Assembly: GCF_001687305.1 (NCBI RefSeq)
Contig: NZ_KV700385.1
Location: 726,523-790,522, forward strand
DNA from: Actinomyces vulturis
GTDB taxonomy: Bacteria > Actinomycetota > Actinomycetes > Actinomycetales > Actinomycetaceae
DNA: 64,000 nt
Reading direction: 5' to 3'
The notes under the pieces are model-generated. The model worked only from the letters and a program-made list of their open reading frames with translations, made no database searches and was not told the DNA's origin. A program made the position numbers and the translations under genes. Positions 40,452 through 50,624 of this stretch are shown piece by piece (within the stretch, counting starts at the first letter, position 1; each line of letters opens with the position of its first letter).

Positions 40452-41504
40452 ATGGCTACCCCCGGCTTCCCTGGGCTCGCTGGATCACAGATGAGCAAAG
40501 AAGAAAAATCTGCTCGCATCGCCGTGATGATTTTCCCCTTCATCATGCTTAGTGCATTTATTGGAGCATTCTTTTCACCTGCGACATTTGTTCCTCTCGC
40601 AGGTTATCTGACTCCTTTGCTTGCTGTGACCATGTTCGGTATGGGCATGACTCTTACCGTTCCTGATTTCACGATGATTGCTCGTCACCCCAAACCCGTC
40701 ATTGTTGGTGTGGCAGCACAATACCTCGTGATGCCTCTTGTGGGATGGACTGTTGCTCATATCCTTCCCCTGCCTGCACCTGTGGCTGTGGGCATTATCC
40801 TCGTGGGATGCGTCCCAGGGGGCACCACCTCCAATGTGGTGACCTTCCTGGCTAAGGGCAATACCGCACTGAGCGTGTCCATGACTGCTTTCTCCACGAT
40901 GCTCGCCCCCATCGTCACCCCCTTGCTGACCCTTCTTCTGGCAGGCACTTATATGCCTATTAATGCTCAGGCTATGGCCATCCAGATCGTCAAGATCGTC
41001 CTCCTGCCTGTCGGCTTGGGCCTGGCCCTCAACGTGTTCTTTAACTCCCTAACCAGCAAGGTCCAGCCCATCATGCCCTGGGTTTCCGTGGTAGCTATCG
41101 CTGGTGTTGTTGCCGCAGTGGTGGCCAAAAGCGCACCGCTCATTGAAACCGCAGGCTTCCTCACCTTCTTCGCTATTGCCCTGGAAAATGCCGTGGGCTA
41201 TTCCCTGGGATACGCTGTGGCACGCGCCGTGGGCCTGACCCGCGCCGATCGCCGGACCCTGTCCATCGAGGTGGGCTTGCAGAACGCAGGCTTGGGCTCA
41301 ACCCTCGCCATGACTCACTTGGGTGCCGCCGTGGCTATGCCCTGTGCAATCGCTACCTTCTGGCACACCATGACTGGTGCGGGATTGGCTATGTACTGGC
41401 GCCTGCGCGGCTACCCCCTTGGTGAAGATCCTTCCCTTGAAGCAGAACTGCTCTCCGTTACCGCTTCGGAATCGGAAGATGCAGTCACTGCATCCGCATC
41501 CTGA
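40452..41504 (+). CDS. Bile acid:sodium symporter (BASS) family transporter
   Basis: Sodium-coupled importer of an organic anion; family members move bile acids, steroid-like compounds, pyruvate or pantothenate. 350 residues with 9-10 membrane segments. The two sodium-site crossover motifs are present: VGCVPGGTTSNVVTFLAKGN near residue 120 and IEVGLQNAGLGSTLAMTHLG near 275. AAGGA precedes the ATG. The MFS gene follows 15 bases after the stop. The substrate is not determinable; the downstream DUF5692/SRPBCC genes make a hydrophobic anion a reasonable guess. Confidence 0.9.
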   Translation: MATPGFPGLAGSQMSKEEKSARIAVMIFPFIMLSAFIGAFFSPATFVPLAGYLTPLLAVTMFGMGMTLTVPDFTMIARHPKPVIVGVAAQYLVMPLVGWTVAHILPLPAPVAVGIILVGCVPGGTTSNVVTFLAKGNTALSVSMTAFSTMLAPIVTPLLTLLLAGTYMPINAQAMAIQIVKIVLLPVGLGLALNVFFNSLTSKVQPIMPWVSVVAIAGVVAAVVAKSAPLIETAGFLTFFAIALENAVGYSLGYAVARAVGLTRADRRTLSIEVGLQNAGLGSTLAMTHLGAAVAMPCAIATFWHTMTGAGLAMYWRLRGYPLGEDPSLEAELLSVTASESEDAVTASAS

Positions 41505-41519
41505 CTGTAAACGGCTGAT

Positions 41520-42962
41520 ATGAACCTCACCTCCACACATCAATCCCGACGCCCTCGTATCTTTGCAGCAACCTTCGTCTCCGAAATTGCTGTGGGGGCA
41601 CACGTCGGCGGTGTGGGCGCACTCATGGTGCTGCTCGCCAATGATTTCAACACTCCGGTGGCTACTTTCGCCATCCTGAGTTCCTTCCTTGGTGTAGGCA
41701 TGGTGGTTTTTAGCCTTCTCTCTCGCTGGCTACTCCAAGCCACGGCGGGCACCATCCTCCGCCTGGCCGCCTACCTGGTGGTCTTTGGAGCAATCGGCCT
41801 GGCCTTCGCCCCATGGATTTGGCTCGTCATTGTGTGCGGTCTTCTCGTGGGATGCGGAACCTCGCTGGTCATCCTCATCGTGCCCGCCGTGCTTGCTGGT
41901 CCTCGCCGTGCCCGCGATATCGCTCTGGCCAACGGCGCCTCCTCAGCAGCATCCATCGCAGCACCACTGGTTTATGGCTTCTGCGATTCGCTACCCGGAG
42001 TTCCCGGACGCTGGGCCGCACTGATGCTGGCCCTCCCCGCCATGTACGTGCTAGCTACTATTCGTCACATTGATTTCGTCAACACCCCCTCAGCATTCGC
42101 CGAACGCTGGGAAGGGCGAAAAGGGCGAGCGCGCCGGAAAGACCTCTCTGACGCCTTTGGCCCCGTGAGCACAGTCCGAGCATTCGGTGGCGCAGAAAAC
42201 GTTGCCGATGATGAACTCGCACGTGCCACTCTGGCTCATGGTGCTACCTCCGTTCATGTTCCTGATCTGGGTGATTATGACAGTGTCTCCGTGGGCGCGG
42301 TGACTGATGCTGCACCGTCAGTAATGGAAGACCACATCCATCCCAGTCACACACCCCAGGAACAGGTACTGACAGGACTAGCCGGGCGGCGTCACCTGCG
42401 TATTGCGCTGAATCTTCTGCGAGTTGCGCTTAGCCTTGTCACGGAGTTTTCCCTCTACGCCTGGGGGGTGGCGCGTTTGGTCGAGAACGGCGTGCCTACA
42501 GCAACGGCAGCAACTTTGGGGGCTGTATTTCCCCTCGGTATGGCAGCAGGGCGCTTGTCTGCTGGTCTGCTCATCCGCTGGCGTTATGTTTTCGTGGCCA
42601 GCATCGCCGCCTCCATTGTCGGTACGCTCATGATTGGCCTGGGCTTGCACTTGCCTCAGATTATTGCCGGTTTAGTAATTGCCGGCATGGGCAACGCCTT
42701 GCTCTACCCCATTACCGTGGATGACTTGGTGGCTATTGATGGGCTTTCGCCCAACCGTGCCGCAGCGCTGTGCTCCCTGGGCGGTGGCGTAACTGTATTC
42801 GTTATGCCTCTTATCCTTCCCCTCGTGGGGCACTATCTGAGTTTGGCGCACTCCTTGCTGCTACTTTGCCCCATCGCTCTTATCCTCTACTTCATCCCCA
42901 CCGGTCGAAGTAGTGTTCATGACAATGATGAGTTCGTAGAGGAGATTACAGCCCGAGCATGA
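41520..42962 (+). CDS. MFS transporter
   Basis: Major facilitator, 480 residues, 12 membrane segments split 6+6 by an unusually long cytoplasmic loop (about residues 185-290, with RWEGRKGRARRKDLSDAFG and an acidic stretch to HIHPSHTPQEQ). VGAHVGGVGALMVLLANDF in segment 1 and PLGMAAGRLSAGLLIRW in the second half support MFS; substrate unknown. It follows the BASS symporter by 15 bases and is presumably in one operon with it; one could import and the other export related compounds. A 19-bp terminator stem follows. Confidence 0.85.
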   Translation: MNLTSTHQSRRPRIFAATFVSEIAVGAHVGGVGALMVLLANDFNTPVATFAILSSFLGVGMVVFSLLSRWLLQATAGTILRLAAYLVVFGAIGLAFAPWIWLVIVCGLLVGCGTSLVILIVPAVLAGPRRARDIALANGASSAASIAAPLVYGFCDSLPGVPGRWAALMLALPAMYVLATIRHIDFVNTPSAFAERWEGRKGRARRKDLSDAFGPVSTVRAFGGAENVADDELARATLAHGATSVHVPDLGDYDSVSVGAVTDAAPSVMEDHIHPSHTPQEQVLTGLAGRRHLRIALNLLRVALSLVTEFSLYAWGVARLVENGVPTATAATLGAVFPLGMAAGRLSAGLLIRWRYVFVASIAASIVGTLMIGLGLHLPQIIAGLVIAGMGNALLYPITVDDLVAIDGLSPNRAAALCSLGGGVTVFVMPLILPLVGHYLSLAHSLLLLCPIALILYFIPTGRSSVHDNDEFVEEITARA

Positions 42963-42992
42963 ACATGCTCGCAAATGCATCAAGATGTTGAC

Positions 42993-43034
42993 TGAAGCGT
43001 TGGGGGCGAGCGAATGCTCGGCCCCAACGCTTCA
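42993..43034. terminator. Bidirectional terminator between MFS and DUF5692 genes
   Basis: A 19-bp stem with one mismatch and a 4-base loop runs from TGAAGCGTTGGGGG to CCCCAACGCTTCA. It lies between convergent genes and begins only 30 bases after the MFS stop. Confidence 0.8.
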
Positions 43035-43041
43035 TCTCCTA

Positions 43042-44355
43042 TTACGATTTCTTCGTGAGAACATTGTCAGCACTGAATGGAGTGCGTGGCTTATTCCAGC
43101 GTTTATCTTCATTCCCCCACCACGGCATATGACCTACATAGCCGTCTGTCGGAGGCTCGTCACTGTCAGGATCAAAGCCCAGTTCACGTGGGGTCTCCTT
43201 GATGAAGTCGCACAGGAAGTATTTATCCTTATCGTCGAAGTGCTCGCGAACAATCGTGCGGAACTCGCCCATCTCAAAGTAGAGAGCATTCGTGAGTGGG
43301 TTACGACCCGTCGTTTTAATCTTGTACATCCAGTACATGAATAGAGCGATGTTAGAAATTAGTGCTGCCATGGAGCAGGCGATATTCGCTGCAGGGTTCA
43401 TCGTGGCGAAGTTTGTCATTGATGACGGTGGCACCAAGATCTCGGGGAGCAGGTTATTCGCTGCAATCCAGAACATGAGGGTAAAGCACCGGAACCAAAT
43501 CCACTGTCCCTTCGCCCAGGTGAATGCAGGGATTGTGCAAGCAAGCAGTAATGCCAGTGTGCAATACCAGGTGTAGTCAGCCAAAGAGTTGTAGAGAAAA
43601 GCATGGTTCCACAGGTCGTAGGCAATAACCCAGGGCCACACCATGTCCACCCAAATGAGACCACGAACCTTCTGTTTCCCTGGGGAAGTTACCATGATCT
43701 TGCCTAGACCAGTGATCGTGATGATGTTGAGTAGGCCAGCAAGGGCCGAGGCAATATTCCACCAACCGCCAATCGTGCGGAAACCTGTGGCAGGGTCAAT
43801 ACCCACATGGCCAGCAGCGAAGTTTGCTGCAACACCCTCATACCAGGCCTGTGAACCTACCTCGCCGGCTACGCCACGAGCTTCAGGTAGGCCAGCAATC
43901 ATGTCAATACCGTTGTGGGTTTCATTGATATGGGCTAGGCAAGTCCAATCTGCACCACAGGCGTAATAGGTATCACCTTGGAAGAAAATCGTCAGGTCGC
44001 GGATATTGGCTTCCATAATGTTGGCGGTTAATCCAATCCATAAAGCCACGCCAAACCAGATGGCATAACGGTGGGCTTTTCGCGGGTTACGCTTGCCGTA
44101 CACCAGAAGGAAACCGGTCATTGTTGCCGTGGCTACCATGATGGCGTACTTGCCGAAAGGGAACCAACCAACCATCGGTGTTCCGTGAATGGCGGCATAC
44201 GGCATCATGAGAATGCCCCCAACAGTCCACAGGGCAAAGATCGTCCAGTTCCACCGTCGGTTGATCTCGGCAATGAGAATCTGGAGGCCAAAAACTAGTA
44301 GCCAGATCATATAGACCGTCGGGGTGCCAATCTCCCACAAGAACAGTGAATGCAT
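43042..44355 (-). CDS. Multi-spanning membrane protein, DUF5692-like (copy A)
   Basis: 437 residues, about eight to ten membrane segments, Trp-rich. I associate it with the DUF5692 family of uncharacterised actinobacterial membrane proteins. Distinctive segments: NIMEANIRDLTIFF near residue 112, WWNIASALAGLLNIITITGL near 200, VIAYDLWNHAFLYNSLADYTWY near 240 and LACTIPAFTWAKGQW. A loop with two Cys (YACGADWTCLAHIN) may be extracellular. The ~80-residue C-terminal tail is hydrophilic. AGGAG precedes the ATG. It diverges from the SRPBCC gene and is a paralogue of the gene at 45786-46829. Confidence 0.75.
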   Translation of the reverse strand: MHSLFLWEIGTPTVYMIWLLVFGLQILIAEINRRWNWTIFALWTVGGILMMPYAAIHGTPMVGWFPFGKYAIMVATATMTGFLLVYGKRNPRKAHRYAIWFGVALWIGLTANIMEANIRDLTIFFQGDTYYACGADWTCLAHINETHNGIDMIAGLPEARGVAGEVGSQAWYEGVAANFAAGHVGIDPATGFRTIGGWWNIASALAGLLNIITITGLGKIMVTSPGKQKVRGLIWVDMVWPWVIAYDLWNHAFLYNSLADYTWYCTLALLLACTIPAFTWAKGQWIWFRCFTLMFWIAANNLLPEILVPPSSMTNFATMNPAANIACSMAALISNIALFMYWMYKIKTTGRNPLTNALYFEMGEFRTIVREHFDDKDKYFLCDFIKETPRELGFDPDSDEPPTDGYVGHMPWWGNEDKRWNKPRTPFSADNVLTKKS

Positions 44356-44622
44356 CAGTGAACTCCTGTAGTGGTAGAGGTGCTAGATAACCAGCGCGGA
44401 ATCATCACAAAGTCACCGATCAACGACGTTGTTAATCGGCGGAATACCGGCGTTTTCCGGTATCGATATTTTTCATGATTGGGACAAAAGTCGGCTGAAT
44501 TCAGCCTAGGAGACATCGTAGGCTGGGTGGGTCCGTCGCGCACAGAGAGGTGCGCAGATGTCCTGTGATGAGACAAAGCAATGGTGCTTTTGTTCATCAT
44601 GACAACGAGAAAGTGAGGAGAA
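44356..44622. promoter_or_regulatory. Divergent promoter region with several palindromes
   Basis: Between the DUF5692 copy A gene and the SRPBCC gene: ATACCGG-N6-CCGGTAT (44444-44463), a perfect 14-bp palindrome GGCTGAATTCAGCC (44493-44506), GCGCAC-N6-GTGCGC (44538-44555), and a looser CCGAT...ATCGG pair with CAAC/GTTG inside it (about 44417-44440). The number and quality of symmetric sites suggest one or more dimeric regulators. No regulator gene lies nearby. Confidence 0.55.
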
Positions 44623-45657
44623 ATGACTCTTTCCTTGAAAGGTCTGGCTAAAACTGCTGGTGTGCTCGGAGCAGGGGTGCTGTCTGGCATGGTGGTTTTC
44701 TCCCAACTCACCGGAAAAGCTACTCCAGAAGAGCAAGCCTGGCACTACCCCTCAGATGACTTGGTTGACGCTAACTACAAGAATGCCTATTCATCCACCT
44801 ACGCCGTTGACATTGATGCCCCTGCCTACGCCGTATACCGCATCTTCAAGCAAATCGGGTGCGATAAGTCTGGTTCCTTTTCTTCGGAGTTTCTCGAGCG
44901 TGTCTTCGCGCGCTTGCCTTTCTTCAACTCCTACGAGATCCAAGAAGAATTTCAGCAGCCGGACTCCCTTGTCCCTGGTGACGTGGCAGCATTTGATTTC
45001 CACGGCATGTCCATGGAATGGGCTGACGTGGTCCCTGGAAAGTACTTGTGTCAGTGGGTGGATACAAAGAACCCGCCTGCTGCTCCAGGCTCATACGCAT
45101 TCCGTTACCCCACCATGAAACATTACGGTGTGGCCTGGTGCTTCTACATGGTCCCCCTCAAGGGTGGACGGACGCGTTTGATCAATCACTGGCGTATTGG
45201 TTTCGAGCCCGATACTGCCCTGCCAAAGGCCATCAACTGGCTCAACATTGAACTTATTGGCGGCTGCATGACGCACATGCAGAATCTCTACGTCAAGCGC
45301 GTAGCTGAGTTCAGCAAGAAGCAGCAGCACACCGGCAAGTTTATGCGCGGAGTACTGGGTGGCCGCTTCTTCAACTCCGGAACCCCAGCAGGGCGCTGGG
45401 ATGGAACACCTCTATTTGAAGAGACTTACACCCAGTGGATGCGTTACGGTCGCCAGAATCCGGCAGTCGCCGAAATACGCCCTCCCGTTACTGACAATCC
45501 CGAATGGCCACCCACCGGCCCTGGAACTCCCTGGGCTGACATAGTGGACGATGAGTATTTCGAGGGTTGGAGTGAACCCGAATTCAGTTGGGAGGAGCAG
45601 ATTCGCCAGAAGATGGAGAAAACTTACCTGCCTAACTGGGGTAAGGAAGGCAAGTAA
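44623..45657 (+). CDS. Membrane-anchored SRPBCC-like protein
   Basis: 344 residues. An N-terminal hydrophobic segment (GVLGAGVLSGMVVFSQL, about 12-28) is probably a signal anchor. Residues 60-230 read as a START/SRPBCC hydrophobic-ligand-binding domain: VDIDAPAYAVYRIFKQIGCDKSG, LVPGDVAAFDFHGMSMEWADVVPG, and FYMVPLKGGRTRLINHWRIGF. The C-terminal ~110 residues are rich in Trp, Pro and charged residues and are unlike any domain I know. It lies between two paralogous DUF5692-like genes and shares a promoter region with one. AGTGAGGAG precedes the ATG closely. Binding of a hydrophobic compound is inference from the fold. Confidence 0.7.
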   Translation: MTLSLKGLAKTAGVLGAGVLSGMVVFSQLTGKATPEEQAWHYPSDDLVDANYKNAYSSTYAVDIDAPAYAVYRIFKQIGCDKSGSFSSEFLERVFARLPFFNSYEIQEEFQQPDSLVPGDVAAFDFHGMSMEWADVVPGKYLCQWVDTKNPPAAPGSYAFRYPTMKHYGVAWCFYMVPLKGGRTRLINHWRIGFEPDTALPKAINWLNIELIGGCMTHMQNLYVKRVAEFSKKQQHTGKFMRGVLGGRFFNSGTPAGRWDGTPLFEETYTQWMRYGRQNPAVAEIRPPVTDNPEWPPTGPGTPWADIVDDEYFEGWSEPEFSWEEQIRQKMEKTYLPNWGKEGK

Positions 45658-45667
45658 CTAACCAATG

Positions 45668-45726
45668 AAAGATAGAGGTGGTGGGGCAGGTGATCAAAGA
45701 TCACCTGCCCCACCACCTCTATCTTT
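45668..45726. terminator. 28-bp perfect hairpin terminator
   Basis: Positions 45668-45695 pair without mismatch with 45699-45726 over an AAA loop, from AAAGATAGAGGTGG to CCACCTCTATCTTT, followed by T. It lies between the convergent SRPBCC and DUF5692 copy B genes and should act both ways. Exceptionally long. Confidence 0.93.
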
Positions 45727-45785
45727 TGGATCCGTGAACTAATGCCTGAGTCAAGCATTTCAGATGTCCCTGGTTCTGCTGTTTG

Positions 45786-46829
45786 TTAGTACACGGCGTC
45801 GTATCCCAAATCATGAGGAGAAGCATTCAGGCGAGCAGCGATACGACGCTTATCATCCTCGCTAGCATGTTCGGCAACCATGCGCGCGTAGGAAGGGGTG
45901 TCGGAGTAGACCTCTTGGATGAAAGGATTACGTTTTTTCTTGATGATGCGCCACATGTGGTAACTGAACACTGCGATATTGGCGATTAAGGAGGCGGCAG
46001 CGAGAAGTGTCATCGCTGTGGGGTTATGTGCCGAGCGATGTGCGAACATGGAATCCTGCATGAAGTGTGGGAAGGTTAGCACTACAGCAGACCAGCAGGT
46101 TAGCGTGTAGGCGCGGTACTGGATCCAGGAACCTTTTCCGAAGGGGAGCAGGGCAGGGATGGTGCAGGCGGCTAGAAGAGCAATGCCCGAGTACCAGGCG
46201 CGGTCCGCCAGGCAGTTATAGACGTAGGAAAGGTTCCACAGGTCGTAGGCGATGATCCACCAGATGGTGAGGTCGCCCCAGATAATGGCTTTGGACTTAC
46301 CTTTGGCTACGAAGATGCCGATCCAGCCTGAGATAGCAAGGAAGTTCAAGATGCCGGCAATGCCATTCATAATGTTCCAAGGTCCACCCCATGTCACCAT
46401 GCCTTGAGAGGGGTCTACGCCGTGGATGGAGAAGCACTGGAAGTCACGGATGACCGCTTCGATAATGTTGACGGCCAGGATAAACGGTGGAATCAAGAGG
46501 TACCACTTGTTGTAGCGTAAGCGCGGAAAGTACTGCAGCGCCACCAAACACAAGGATCCTGCGAGGGCAGAGTATTGCTTAACGATGGGGAACCAGCCGG
46601 CAGAGTTCGTCCCTTCAGTGGAGTGTGGCCACCAGAAAACGGTGAGAAGTAATGGGATGACTATGAACACTGCTAGGACTACCCATTTGTTTCGTTGAGC
46701 TAGCCAAGCGACGGTAGTGAGCGCAACCGTGACCACAATGAGCATGAGGTAATCCCACCACTGACCCCGCTCGAAGAAGAATAGTGTCGGGTAATCTGGT
46801 GGAGTGATTGTCGCCAGTGAAGTGAACAT
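45786..46829 (-). CDS. Multi-spanning membrane protein, DUF5692-like (copy B)
   Basis: 347 residues, about eight to nine membrane segments. Clear paralogue of the gene at 43042-44355: NIIEAVIRDFQCF, PWNIMNGIAGILNFLAISGW, IIAYDLWNLSYVYNCLADRAWY and LACTIPALLPFGKGSW align with matching segments in copy A. It lacks the two-Cys loop and the long tail of copy A. AAGGA precedes the ATG. Same strand as copy A, but separated from it by the oppositely oriented SRPBCC gene and a 28-bp terminator, so the two are transcribed separately. Confidence 0.75.
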   Translation of the reverse strand: MFTSLATITPPDYPTLFFFERGQWWDYLMLIVVTVALTTVAWLAQRNKWVVLAVFIVIPLLLTVFWWPHSTEGTNSAGWFPIVKQYSALAGSLCLVALQYFPRLRYNKWYLLIPPFILAVNIIEAVIRDFQCFSIHGVDPSQGMVTWGGPWNIMNGIAGILNFLAISGWIGIFVAKGKSKAIIWGDLTIWWIIAYDLWNLSYVYNCLADRAWYSGIALLAACTIPALLPFGKGSWIQYRAYTLTCWSAVVLTFPHFMQDSMFAHRSAHNPTAMTLLAAASLIANIAVFSYHMWRIIKKKRNPFIQEVYSDTPSYARMVAEHASEDDKRRIAARLNASPHDLGYDAVY

Positions 46830-47866: not shown

Positions 47867-49741
47867 TCAGCTGTGGCGACGACGTGCGGTTAGAGCACCT
47901 GCACCGGCAACAGCTGCGACACCGGCAATGCCGAGGAGGGAGAGTGCGTCAGCGCCGGTCTGTGCGAGACCCTTCTTGCTGTCACTCTTCTTTGCTGGCT
48001 TCTTGGTGGACTCGGCCTTGGCCTCATCCTTTGCCTTGGAGTCGCCAGGCTTTGCTTCGTCAGCGGGAGCGGGGGCCTCGGTTGCTTCGTCAGCGGGAGC
48101 GGGGGCCTCGGTTGCTTCGTCAACGAGAACGGGGGCCTCGGTTGCTTCGTCAGCGGGAGCGGGGGCCTCGGTTGCTTCGTCAACGAGAACGGGGGCCTCG
48201 GTTGCTTCGTCAGCGGGAGCGGGGGCCTCGGTTGCTTCGTCAGCGGGAGCCTCAGGGGTGCTGCAGGCGAGTGCAATATCGGAGAGGGGGAACATTGCGG
48301 CGCGGGTGCCGTTTGCGAAGTAGAGTTTGTCTCCGTACTTGGGGTTGAGGAGCTTAGCGTTCTCAACGTCGATCACAACACCCATCCATGCATCACCCTC
48401 GGGGCGATCTACGGTGACGGGGAGTTCCTTCATTTTTTGAGCATTGGCGTTGATGAGTTTGCCTTCATCATTCAGGGTGCCGATGCCGTAGTGGAGAACG
48501 TCGATCATTTCGTCCTGGCGCACGTCCACGCTGATCTTCTCAACGCCGTTTACGCATACGCCTGTGACCTTGTAAGCAGGGTCAACGATGATTGCGTCAG
48601 CGGGCATGACATAGGAAGTCTTCACGACGGGAACCTTGACGGTTGCGCCGAGGTTGAGGGAAGCCTCGAGAACTTCGCCACCAACCTTCTCGATCTTTAG
48701 CTCGTACTGACCGGGATCGAAGTACTGGGTGTGCGCATCAGAGCCAGCCTTGGCGGTGTAGACGGTAGCAACTTCGCCGGTCGCTTTGTTGATTAAGGTG
48801 TAAACAACGTCGAAGTTCTTGGATGATTCGAAAGTGACGGGGTAGCGAACCTCACCCTTTTCGGACACCTTCTTGTCGGCAACCTTCACCATAGCCTTGA
48901 CCTGAGCTTCGGTGGCTTCATCTGCAAAATCAGCGAAGGTAGGAAGGGCTTCTTCTTTGTAGACAGGCTGCTTAACGGTGCGGTCAACGTTAACGACGAA
49001 CTCGCTCTGGGATGAAGCCTGACCTTCGCCACGGATCATCTTGACATTGAGGGCGGTGTTGGCGTCGAAGTAGAGAACTTTGTCGGCTGCGCCTGCTTCG
49101 AGGACGACGTCAGAGGCAACGCGGTTACCGTTGTTGTCAGTGATGATGTAGGTAACTTTGTGGTTCTGAAGTGCTTTGAAGGTGACAGCAACGCGCTGAT
49201 CGCCTGAAGGGCCTGTCTGGGTGTTGCCGACGGAGACCATTGCTCCAGCGATGGCAGCTTCGTCGCCGGAGAGGCCTTCGATGACGGGGGCCTTCACGTC
49301 TTCTGTTACAGGGGTGACAACCTTCTCAGCCTCGTCACCGTAGGGGTTCTTGAGGTTGGGGTCAACGACAGGCTGAGTGGCGGCGGGGGTTTCTTCGGCG
49401 GGTGTTTCGGGGGCGGCAGGAGTTTCAGTTTCAACGGCGGGCTGTGCGCAGGAGAGGCTGACAGATTCAGGGCCGCTCCATTTGCCATCGTTCTGGACGT
49501 AAACGTCGACAGACATGTTGGTGGCCTCGCCAATGGTTACACTCTGGCCGCTGAGGCGCTCGCCATCGGGGGTAACAATGCCAAGGTTTTCACTACCGTT
49601 AACGGAGAAAACGGCGTTGCCGAGTGAATCACAGGAGTAGGTGTAATCGCCTGCAGCGCTTGCAGTAGGGACTACTGCGCCAGCGCAGAGAAGGGCGGCG
49701 GTGACAGCACTGACGCCCAGGCGCTTATTGAACTTGGTCAT
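47867..49741 (-). CDS. Cell-wall-anchored surface protein with LPXTG-like signal
   Basis: 624 residues from ATG 49741, which follows GGAG at 7 bases. Signal peptide (RLGVSAVTAALLCAGAVVPTASA), an extracellular part with apparently repeated modules of roughly 100 residues (VAVTFKALQNHKVTYIITDNNGN near 225 and YPVTFESSKNFDVVYTLINKATGE near 310 resemble each other), a stalk of 10-residue repeats DEATEAPAPA, a Lys/Ala-rich region, and a sorting signal: LAQTG (592-596), hydrophobic stretch, RRRHS. The extracellular function is unknown; adhesion or matrix binding is a guess. No sortase gene is in the window. Confidence 0.85.
   Translation of the reverse strand: MTKFNKRLGVSAVTAALLCAGAVVPTASAAGDYTYSCDSLGNAVFSVNGSENLGIVTPDGERLSGQSVTIGEATNMSVDVYVQNDGKWSGPESVSLSCAQPAVETETPAAPETPAEETPAATQPVVDPNLKNPYGDEAEKVVTPVTEDVKAPVIEGLSGDEAAIAGAMVSVGNTQTGPSGDQRVAVTFKALQNHKVTYIITDNNGNRVASDVVLEAGAADKVLYFDANTALNVKMIRGEGQASSQSEFVVNVDRTVKQPVYKEEALPTFADFADEATEAQVKAMVKVADKKVSEKGEVRYPVTFESSKNFDVVYTLINKATGEVATVYTAKAGSDAHTQYFDPGQYELKIEKVGGEVLEASLNLGATVKVPVVKTSYVMPADAIIVDPAYKVTGVCVNGVEKISVDVRQDEMIDVLHYGIGTLNDEGKLINANAQKMKELPVTVDRPEGDAWMGVVIDVENAKLLNPKYGDKLYFANGTRAAMFPLSDIALACSTPEAPADEATEAPAPADEATEAPVLVDEATEAPAPADEATEAPVLVDEATEAPAPADEATEAPAPADEAKPGDSKAKDEAKAESTKKPAKKSDSKKGLAQTGADALSLLGIAGVAAVAGAGALTARRRHS
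48052..48250 (-). repeat. 30-bp coding repeats in the surface-protein stalk
   Basis: Six exact-length units fill 48061-48240, with partial units on both flanks. Two variants differ by three G-to-A changes (CAGCGGGAGC versus CAACGAGAAC) and occur in the order A-A-B-A-B-A. They encode APADEATE or VLVDEATE. The alternation indicates duplication of a 60-bp AB block. The number of units is likely to vary. Confidence 0.95.
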
Positions 49742-50148
49742 GAGGGGGCTCCACTTCATGATGAGTAATGGTTGCTTATCGCATCCAGTAGATAATCTGG
49801 CGCGAACTCTTAGAGCGTAGCAAAGGCAACTGTCATTAATCAGTGGTTTCAGAGAAATCTTTATCAAATTGTTATAGGGATTTTAGGCTTTAATTGCAGC
49901 AAAAGGTGCTGGTCGTGTGTTATTGGGAAACGTCTAGCATGGAATGAAAACTGACGCACCCTTCGGAGGGGGTTAAAAAGTTGTACTAATTCGATACATA
50001 TATGTATCAATAAGGTTTGGGGGCGAGACGTAGCGAGATGGAGGGAGCAGTAATCTACCTTCGGAGGTGTAACGTCAGGATGAACGGGTTCGAATTGGGA
50101 CATTCTGGGATTTGATCATCGGAGGTACTCTGTTCTCTCGTTTCGCTC
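49742..50148. other. Intergenic region with a 16-bp palindrome and two small hairpins
   Basis: No gene seen. GATACATATATGTATC at 49993-50008 is a perfect palindrome, probably a regulator site. Two short hairpins share the core CCTTCGGAGG (49959-49970 and 50057-50068). The surface-protein promoter must lie in the A+T-rich part near 49830-49900. Confidence 0.45.
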
Positions 50149-50185
50149 TGGAGTTGCGTATCAGACTCGAACCGATGGCCTGCTG
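50149..50185 (-). pseudogene. 3' fragment of tRNA-Thr (att-site-like duplicate)
   Basis: 33 of 37 bases match the 3' half of tRNA-Thr at 51150-51186, in the same orientation, including encoded CCA, the acceptor 3' strand, the whole T-arm, the variable loop and most of the 3' strand of the anticodon stem. Upstream of this the similarity stops. A 3' tRNA fragment in direct orientation about 1 kb beyond the intact gene is the classical trace of site-specific integration. Confidence 0.75.
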
Positions 50186-50249
50186 CTCATCACTCAGATC
50201 CACTGGGTGGAGGGGTGGAGAATATACGACGATATGGAGGATGGCGAGC

Positions 50250-50624
50250 ATGAATGGTGACTTTGACGGGTCGCGACTCCGTCTCCTACGCAAAGCAATG
50301 GGCCTTGACAGCGCATGGGTCGCCGCGCGCTTCGCCGTTAATGAGCGCACAGTGAGGCGCTGGCAGGCGGGAACCAATCCGATTCCGCCAGACGTAGTAA
50401 CGGGCTTCCAGCAGTTGGTTGAGAAATATAGCGAACTCATCGAGTCCATGATTGACGGCGTAGAAAAAGATGGCGTGCTGCTCGTTTTCTCCGGCTTGGA
50501 GGCTTCACAACTCGATGGGGATGCGATTCCCCTATCGATGTTCAATCGAGCAGCTCAGCAGGCAGCGATCTACTGTGAAGAAAACAAGATTCCATACGTC
50601 ATCAAAGTTCGTACACTTTCTTAG
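50250..50624 (+). CDS. Small HTH DNA-binding protein
   Basis: 124 residues from ATG 50250, nine bases after GGAGG. An N-terminal helix-turn-helix (RLRLLRKAMGLDSAWVAARFAVNERTVRRWQAG) is followed by a conserved-looking NPIPPDVVTGFQQL. The arrangement resembles the YdiL/Aca2-like HTH group, in which HTH is followed by WxxG..IP; this is a weak impression. The C-terminal half (GVLLVFSGLEASQL, YCEENKIPYVIKV) may mediate dimerisation. The frame is open upstream to 50112 through the tRNA fragment, which argues that part is not coding. A 16-bp palindrome at 49993-50008 is a plausible target. Confidence 0.7.
   Translation: MNGDFDGSRLRLLRKAMGLDSAWVAARFAVNERTVRRWQAGTNPIPPDVVTGFQQLVEKYSELIESMIDGVEKDGVLLVFSGLEASQLDGDAIPLSMFNRAAQQAAIYCEENKIPYVIKVRTLS

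Follow-up and report, generated by a model that had tools for sequence, protein, structure and literature searches.

We analyzed a 64,000-nucleotide stretch of the Actinomyces vulturis genome (NCBI RefSeq assembly GCF_001687305.1, contig NZ_KV700385.1, positions 726,523 to 790,522 of the forward strand), referred to here as the window, and focused on two paralogous membrane proteins of the DUF5692 family, copies A and B, which lie on either side of a membrane-anchored SRPBCC-like protein. An earlier note made from the sequence (the original prediction) had placed five open reading frames here, with a BASS and an MFS carrier beside the other three, and had called both paralogues DUF5692-like. 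A check of the reading frames confirmed all five, and both copies score above the curated cut-off of 27 bits for PF18948 (DUF5692). The features are as follows:

40452-41504, + strand: BASS carrier, open reading frame; SBF Pfam match of 143.3 bits, above the cut-off
41520-42962, + strand: MFS carrier, open reading frame; MFS_1 Pfam match of 42.7 bits
43042-44355, - strand: copy A, the long DUF5692 paralogue, 437 amino acids; PF18948 match of 198 bits, conserved two-Cys insertion and long C-terminal tail
44356-44622, no strand: divergent intergenic region of 267 bp between A and the SRPBCC gene; the same adjacent divergent layout is present in 15 of 17 loci
44623-45657, + strand: anchored SRPBCC/START-fold protein, 344 amino acids; N-terminal helix at residues 5-29, domain probably outside the membrane
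45786-46829, - strand: copy B, DUF5692 paralogue, 347 amino acids; PF18948 match of 395.6 bits, modelled with nine long helices

The A, SRPBCC and B genes form one co-inherited cassette, as gene content and linkage read directly from the genomes indicate. Scanning GTDB species genomes with a profile gave at least 584 relatives of B, and 17 loci among the best 80 of these make up the subfamily of B (62-77% identity). Both A and the SRPBCC gene lie within about 4 kb of B in all 17 B-type loci, and neither was found at any of the 63 standalone loci (tblastn, 1e-6; flanks are short in some). The grouping of the three genes proposed in the original prediction therefore stands. A rarity of SRPBCC genes beside DUF5692, which it had named as telling against its proposal, is seen in the family as a whole (63 of 80 loci lack one) and is not seen in the subfamily of the window. 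B-type hosts are Actinomyces, Schaalia, Bowdeniella, Corynebacterium, Arcanobacterium, Boudabousia, Mobiluncus and other Actinomycetaceae, together with one Tissierella, the only member of Bacillota. Among 59 relatives, a full-length SRPBCC match (above 600 bits) occurs only in the window genome (G000), G008, G012 and G018, which are exactly the genomes with copy A; six others that carry DUF5692 and lack A have no full-length SRPBCC match, and matches in five other genomes are weak (22-46 bits). Across 394 genomes of the class, the SRPBCC gene is found in the window genome alone, and matches in 30 others are weak, none above 49 bits. The 17 cassette genomes contain 19 A-type matches, each with a B-like-scoring DUF5692 match within about 3 kb, and two of these genomes (G945 and G946) carry two complete sets, the second with an SRPBCC gene of its own (675 and 663 bits) lying between A and B. 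We note that in G018, a draft genome of the same genus, the B copy is interrupted or misassembled (contig C10, 18566-19446) and the A and SRPBCC frames are open.

Four arrangements of the cassette were observed among the 17 B-type loci. A and the SRPBCC gene are neighboring and divergent in 15 of them, and B follows the SRPBCC gene on the same strand in 12 (in 11 with an overlap or no more than 8 bp between them, and in one 104 bp away). In four loci B and the SRPBCC gene converge, as they do in the window, and at one locus (L055) B sits between the SRPBCC gene and A. The retention of the trio despite these rearrangements argues for a function. No obvious motif of a shared A/SRPBCC operator was seen in the inspected part of a rough alignment. 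In a quick tree, A and B resolve as separate clades, with Shimodaira-Hasegawa-like approximate likelihood ratio test (SH-aLRT) supports of 99 and 96. Their subgroups broadly match, including a grouping of Tissierella with Arcanobacterium in both clades (98 for A, 94 for B), which suggests that the pair probably moved together; Mobiluncus is placed differently in the two clades, and Bowdeniella joins Corynebacterium only in that of B.

Copies A and B are 30% (BLAST) to 35% (alignment) identical. Residue conservation was read from an alignment of 20 A-type, 19 B-type and 79 standalone rows. Lys84, Asn121, Asp129, Asn152, Asp186, Tyr195, Asp196, Asn199 and Arg239 (B numbering) are present in every A-type and B-type row and in 99-100% of standalone ones, so that both copies share with standalone DUF5692 proteins these nine residues as well as a score above the family cut-off. 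They differ from the standalone members in three respects. Copy A has an insertion with two cysteines, Cys133 and Cys139, found in 20 of 20 A-type rows at columns that are gapped in all B-type and standalone rows, and a long tail; both features had been predicted, along with the difference in length. In the first long helix of copy B, the E..R motif of the family is replaced by W42..Q45, and the E position is W in 18 of 19 B-type rows. Finally, A and B are accompanied by the SRPBCC gene, which tblastn at 1e-6 found at none of the 63 standalone loci. The motifs said to be shared by the two copies are real in both, except that LACTIPA is found only in A and reads AACTIPA in B.

The middle protein of the cassette is predicted to have an SRPBCC/START-like fold, in agreement with the original prediction. 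Its model and structure comparisons show elements in helix-grip order and structural matches to members of the SRPBCC/START superfamily (PYR/PYL, rhizobial START-type, aromatase/cyclase and norcoclaurine synthase). It differs from these in having a membrane anchor, a C-terminal extension (of low confidence in the model) and no Pfam match: the window protein gave no Pfam or NCBIfam match at E<=0.1, and 6 of 18 homologues match PF10604 weakly (best E 0.011), so it was not assigned to PF10604 or any other SRPBCC family of Pfam. The nine-helix model of copy B found no PDB match at a Foldseek E<=0.001 (best 0.16), which does not by itself prove a new fold, and no significant match came from a sequence-profile comparison of DUF5692 with the PDB (best E 0.87); we therefore set aside the possibility that DUF5692 has the fold of a known carrier or enzyme. 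The VIA comparison gave a middling Z of 5.9 to seven-transmembrane rhodopsins and receptors, which we do not take as kinship.

The surroundings of DUF5692 outside the cassette point to unsaturated lipids. In the literature searched, a single paper names DUF5692. It reports the family as a neighbor (frequency 0.4) of ~900-residue oxidoreductases related to an isoprene reductase, together with HypA, HypB and TetR, and in two Acetobacterium species it reports an oleate hydratase between TetR and a hypothetical protein, which is not identified there as DUF5692. We surveyed neighbors within five genes at 100 loci (83 non-cassette and 17 cassette). A protein of 893-956 residues with Fer4_20 and Pyr_redox_2 domains, an iron-sulfur/flavin reductase, is found at 5 of the 100, HypA at four and a CobW/HypB-type protein at three. 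Isoprene is a conjugated diene, a feature it would share with the product of linoleate isomerase. A regulator cluster occurs at 39 of the 83 non-cassette loci, directly upstream of DUF5692 in 33, and 36 of the 39 regulators match TetR_N (E<=0.001). At all four Paenibacillus loci, a homologue of PDB entry 2b9w lies one or two called genes upstream of DUF5692 (222.9, 236.7, 196.2 and 232.6 bits; the next chain reaches at most 37.7). This entry is named a putative aminooxidase in the PDB, and we take it to be the polyunsaturated fatty acid isomerase of P. acnes. It is a flavin amine-oxidase-type protein of a family separate from DUF5692, and the two possibly share a pathway. At these loci (L071, L075, L081 and L097) a helix-turn-helix protein accompanies the 2b9w-like flavin adenine dinucleotide protein ahead of DUF5692. 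We searched 33 genomes (L107 excluded) for oleate hydratase (PF06100), which scores above its cut-off in 13, including the window genome (contig C4, 122945-124438; 654 bits). Because 2b9w homologues, TetR regulators and iron-sulfur/flavin reductases surround the family, and an apparent Bifidobacterium breve carries it, we consider a function of DUF5692 on unsaturated lipids likely.

The bifidobacterial connection concerns bbi. Deleting this gene in B. breve CCFM683 has been reported to lower linoleate conversion from 92.25% to 0%, with 85.62% after complementation, and bbi expressed in L. plantarum ST-III gave 78.64% conversion (PMC11812354). DUF5692 matches were found in 37 of 112 genomes of the genus of G054, 33 of them above the cut-off. 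One of these genomes, G464, presumably represents B. breve by a primer match and its 16S signature and carries a single DUF5692 gene (contig C1, 19354-20295; 463 bits). The primer pair reported for B. breve DSM 20213 (PMC6955684) matches this genome only, and the available part of that paper names no DUF5692 gene. A 16S pattern matched 56 of the 112 genomes. By signatures that we assume to be diagnostic, DUF5692 is present in a dentium-like genome (G477), one of the catenulatum group (G510) and a mixed one (G487), and no match above the cut-off is present in adolescentis-like (G450), bifidum-like (G460) or longum-like (G493) genomes; another presumed catenulatum-group genome (G468) scores 25.7 bits, below the cut-off. 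In G468, G469, G490 and G456, open reading frames of 443-496 residues give partial, weak matches (21-26 bits) and are possibly a remote subfamily. Reported producers of conjugated linoleate include B. breve and B. dentium (PMC12254105) and a B. pseudocatenulatum strain (PMC11812354), so the distribution of DUF5692 partly fits, with one genome per species, which does not settle a trait that varies by strain. B. longum and B. animalis strains are also reported producers (PMC12254105), which counts against the identity of bbi with DUF5692. We regard DUF5692 as a fairly likely candidate for bbi. The product of bbi, BBI, presumably spans the membrane with seven or nine helices. One difference from the cassette is that bbi alone is reported to suffice in L. 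plantarum (PMC11812354), whereas the window has two paralogues and an SRPBCC protein.

We therefore favor, with a probability of roughly 0.5, a reading in which A and B form a membrane enzyme, probably heteromeric, that acts on an unsaturated acyl lipid and is served by the SRPBCC protein. The two intramembrane proteins would most likely act jointly, and the conserved Asp, Asn, Tyr, Arg and Lys residues of the helix bundle would provide acid-base chemistry by which a double bond is probably moved or otherwise edited. The N-terminal helix would tether the SRPBCC domain outside the membrane, where it may bind the hydrophobic substrate or product and pass it to or from A and B. A heteromer served in this way is a reasonable model on which we are evenly divided, and both the hydrophobic ligand and the divided roles of the copies put forward in the original prediction are plausible.

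Several observations weigh against this enzyme reading. At 36 polar or aromatic positions that are near-invariant in the 79 standalone proteins (a yardstick of our own, with no published definition), A keeps 26 and differs at 10, and B keeps 30 and differs at six, the E..R motif among these six. Judged from these residues, A and B might not catalyze the ordinary DUF5692 reaction; the changes may also allow a joint reaction unlike that of standalone members. The two copies share three losses against 1.7 expected if the losses were independent, so complementarity does not exceed chance, and we rejected it as proof that they share an active site. In Foldseek the SRPBCC model reaches only low TM-scores (0.49 or less by target), and the convergent orientation of B in the window means that there is no single operon. 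None of the 17 cassettes has a TetR, 2b9w-like or reductase cluster within a distance of five genes. Oleate hydratase was found in none of seven other cassette genomes sampled and was rejected as a cassette companion, and in the literature searched we found no link of bbi to DUF5692, its candidate family.

Other explanations fit part of the evidence. A nine-helix membrane protein with a tethered binding-type domain would also suit transport or flipping of a hydrophobic compound by A and B without chemistry, the SRPBCC protein serving as extracytoplasmic binding partner. We consider this unlikely, as the B model matches no PDB chain at a Foldseek E<=0.001 (though it may represent a new transporter fold), the many invariant polar helix residues suit an enzyme at least equally well, and standalone members adjoin homologues of a fatty-acid isomerase structure. 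Remodelling of the cell's own envelope lipids, rather than of imported or host fatty acids, seems similarly improbable: the membrane location and START-like fold agree with it, as does the occurrence of hosts in two genera with different envelope lipids, Corynebacterium and Actinomyces, but the patchy presence (4 of 59 relatives) and the one Bacillota member suggest an optional function. In the scheme drawn from the original prediction, a compound resembling a bile acid or sterol would be imported by the BASS and MFS carriers, bound by the SRPBCC protein and modified by A and B. All five genes do lie next to one another in the window, with 15 bp between the two carrier genes on the + strand. 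However, homologues of these carriers are absent (tblastn, E up to 1e-2) from the flanks of 20 other cassette loci, namely the 17 B-type loci (2.8-10 kb per side, except L063 with none on the left and 2.1 kb on the right) and those of G008, G012 and G018, which speaks against their membership and suggests unrelated neighbors. The best NCBIfam model for the BASS protein is PanS (NF047939), at 254.7 bits under a cut-off of 400, so a pantothenate/ketopantoate transporter identity was not adopted. Nothing found points to a sterol or bile-acid-like substrate, and DUF5692 surroundings elsewhere point to unsaturated fatty acids; we regard this import scheme as highly improbable. A bolder form of the enzyme reading remains tentative and is rather doubtful. 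It would make the pair an obligate heteromeric intramembrane lipid isomerase with functional residues split between diverged subunits, fed by the SRPBCC protein as a lipid carrier tethered at the surface, self-contained and occasionally transferred, editing double bonds of host or dietary lipids in host-associated Actinomycetota, with a fold that has no solved counterpart.

Other genes were seen along the way. The window also encodes an LPXTG-type anchored protein (47867-49867), in which DEATEAP-type repeats lie close to the C-terminus, and a small helix-turn-helix protein barely at an Aca2/YdiL-like Pfam cut-off (50112-50624; 23.8 bits). The genome of locus L052 (G937) has four consecutive DUF5692 matches separate from its cassette (contig C2, 1972822-1976918), and a Latilactobacillus curvatus plasmid (CP117684.1) carries a DUF5692 gene 44.5% identical to B. 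In two genomes of one Actinomycetota family, very divergent DUF5692-like genes just under the cut-off (L152, 6640-7608, 26.4 bits; L157, 5857-6768, 26.6 bits) are each paired divergently with a normal DUF5692 gene, a recurring paralogue pair with no SRPBCC gene in the neighborhood inspected.

Membrane-bound linoleate isomerases have been purified since the 1960s (Kepler et al. 1966, cited in PMC12254105), and in the literature searched we found no protein family assigned to them. DUF5692 may be the enzyme by which some gut bifidobacteria rearrange double bonds of polyunsaturated fats, and such an identity for a family in which B has 584 or more relatives could account for some of what bacteria do with conjugated fatty acids. 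If this is true, the A-SRPBCC-B cassette would represent a more elaborate form of the DUF5692 function that is linked to the surface.

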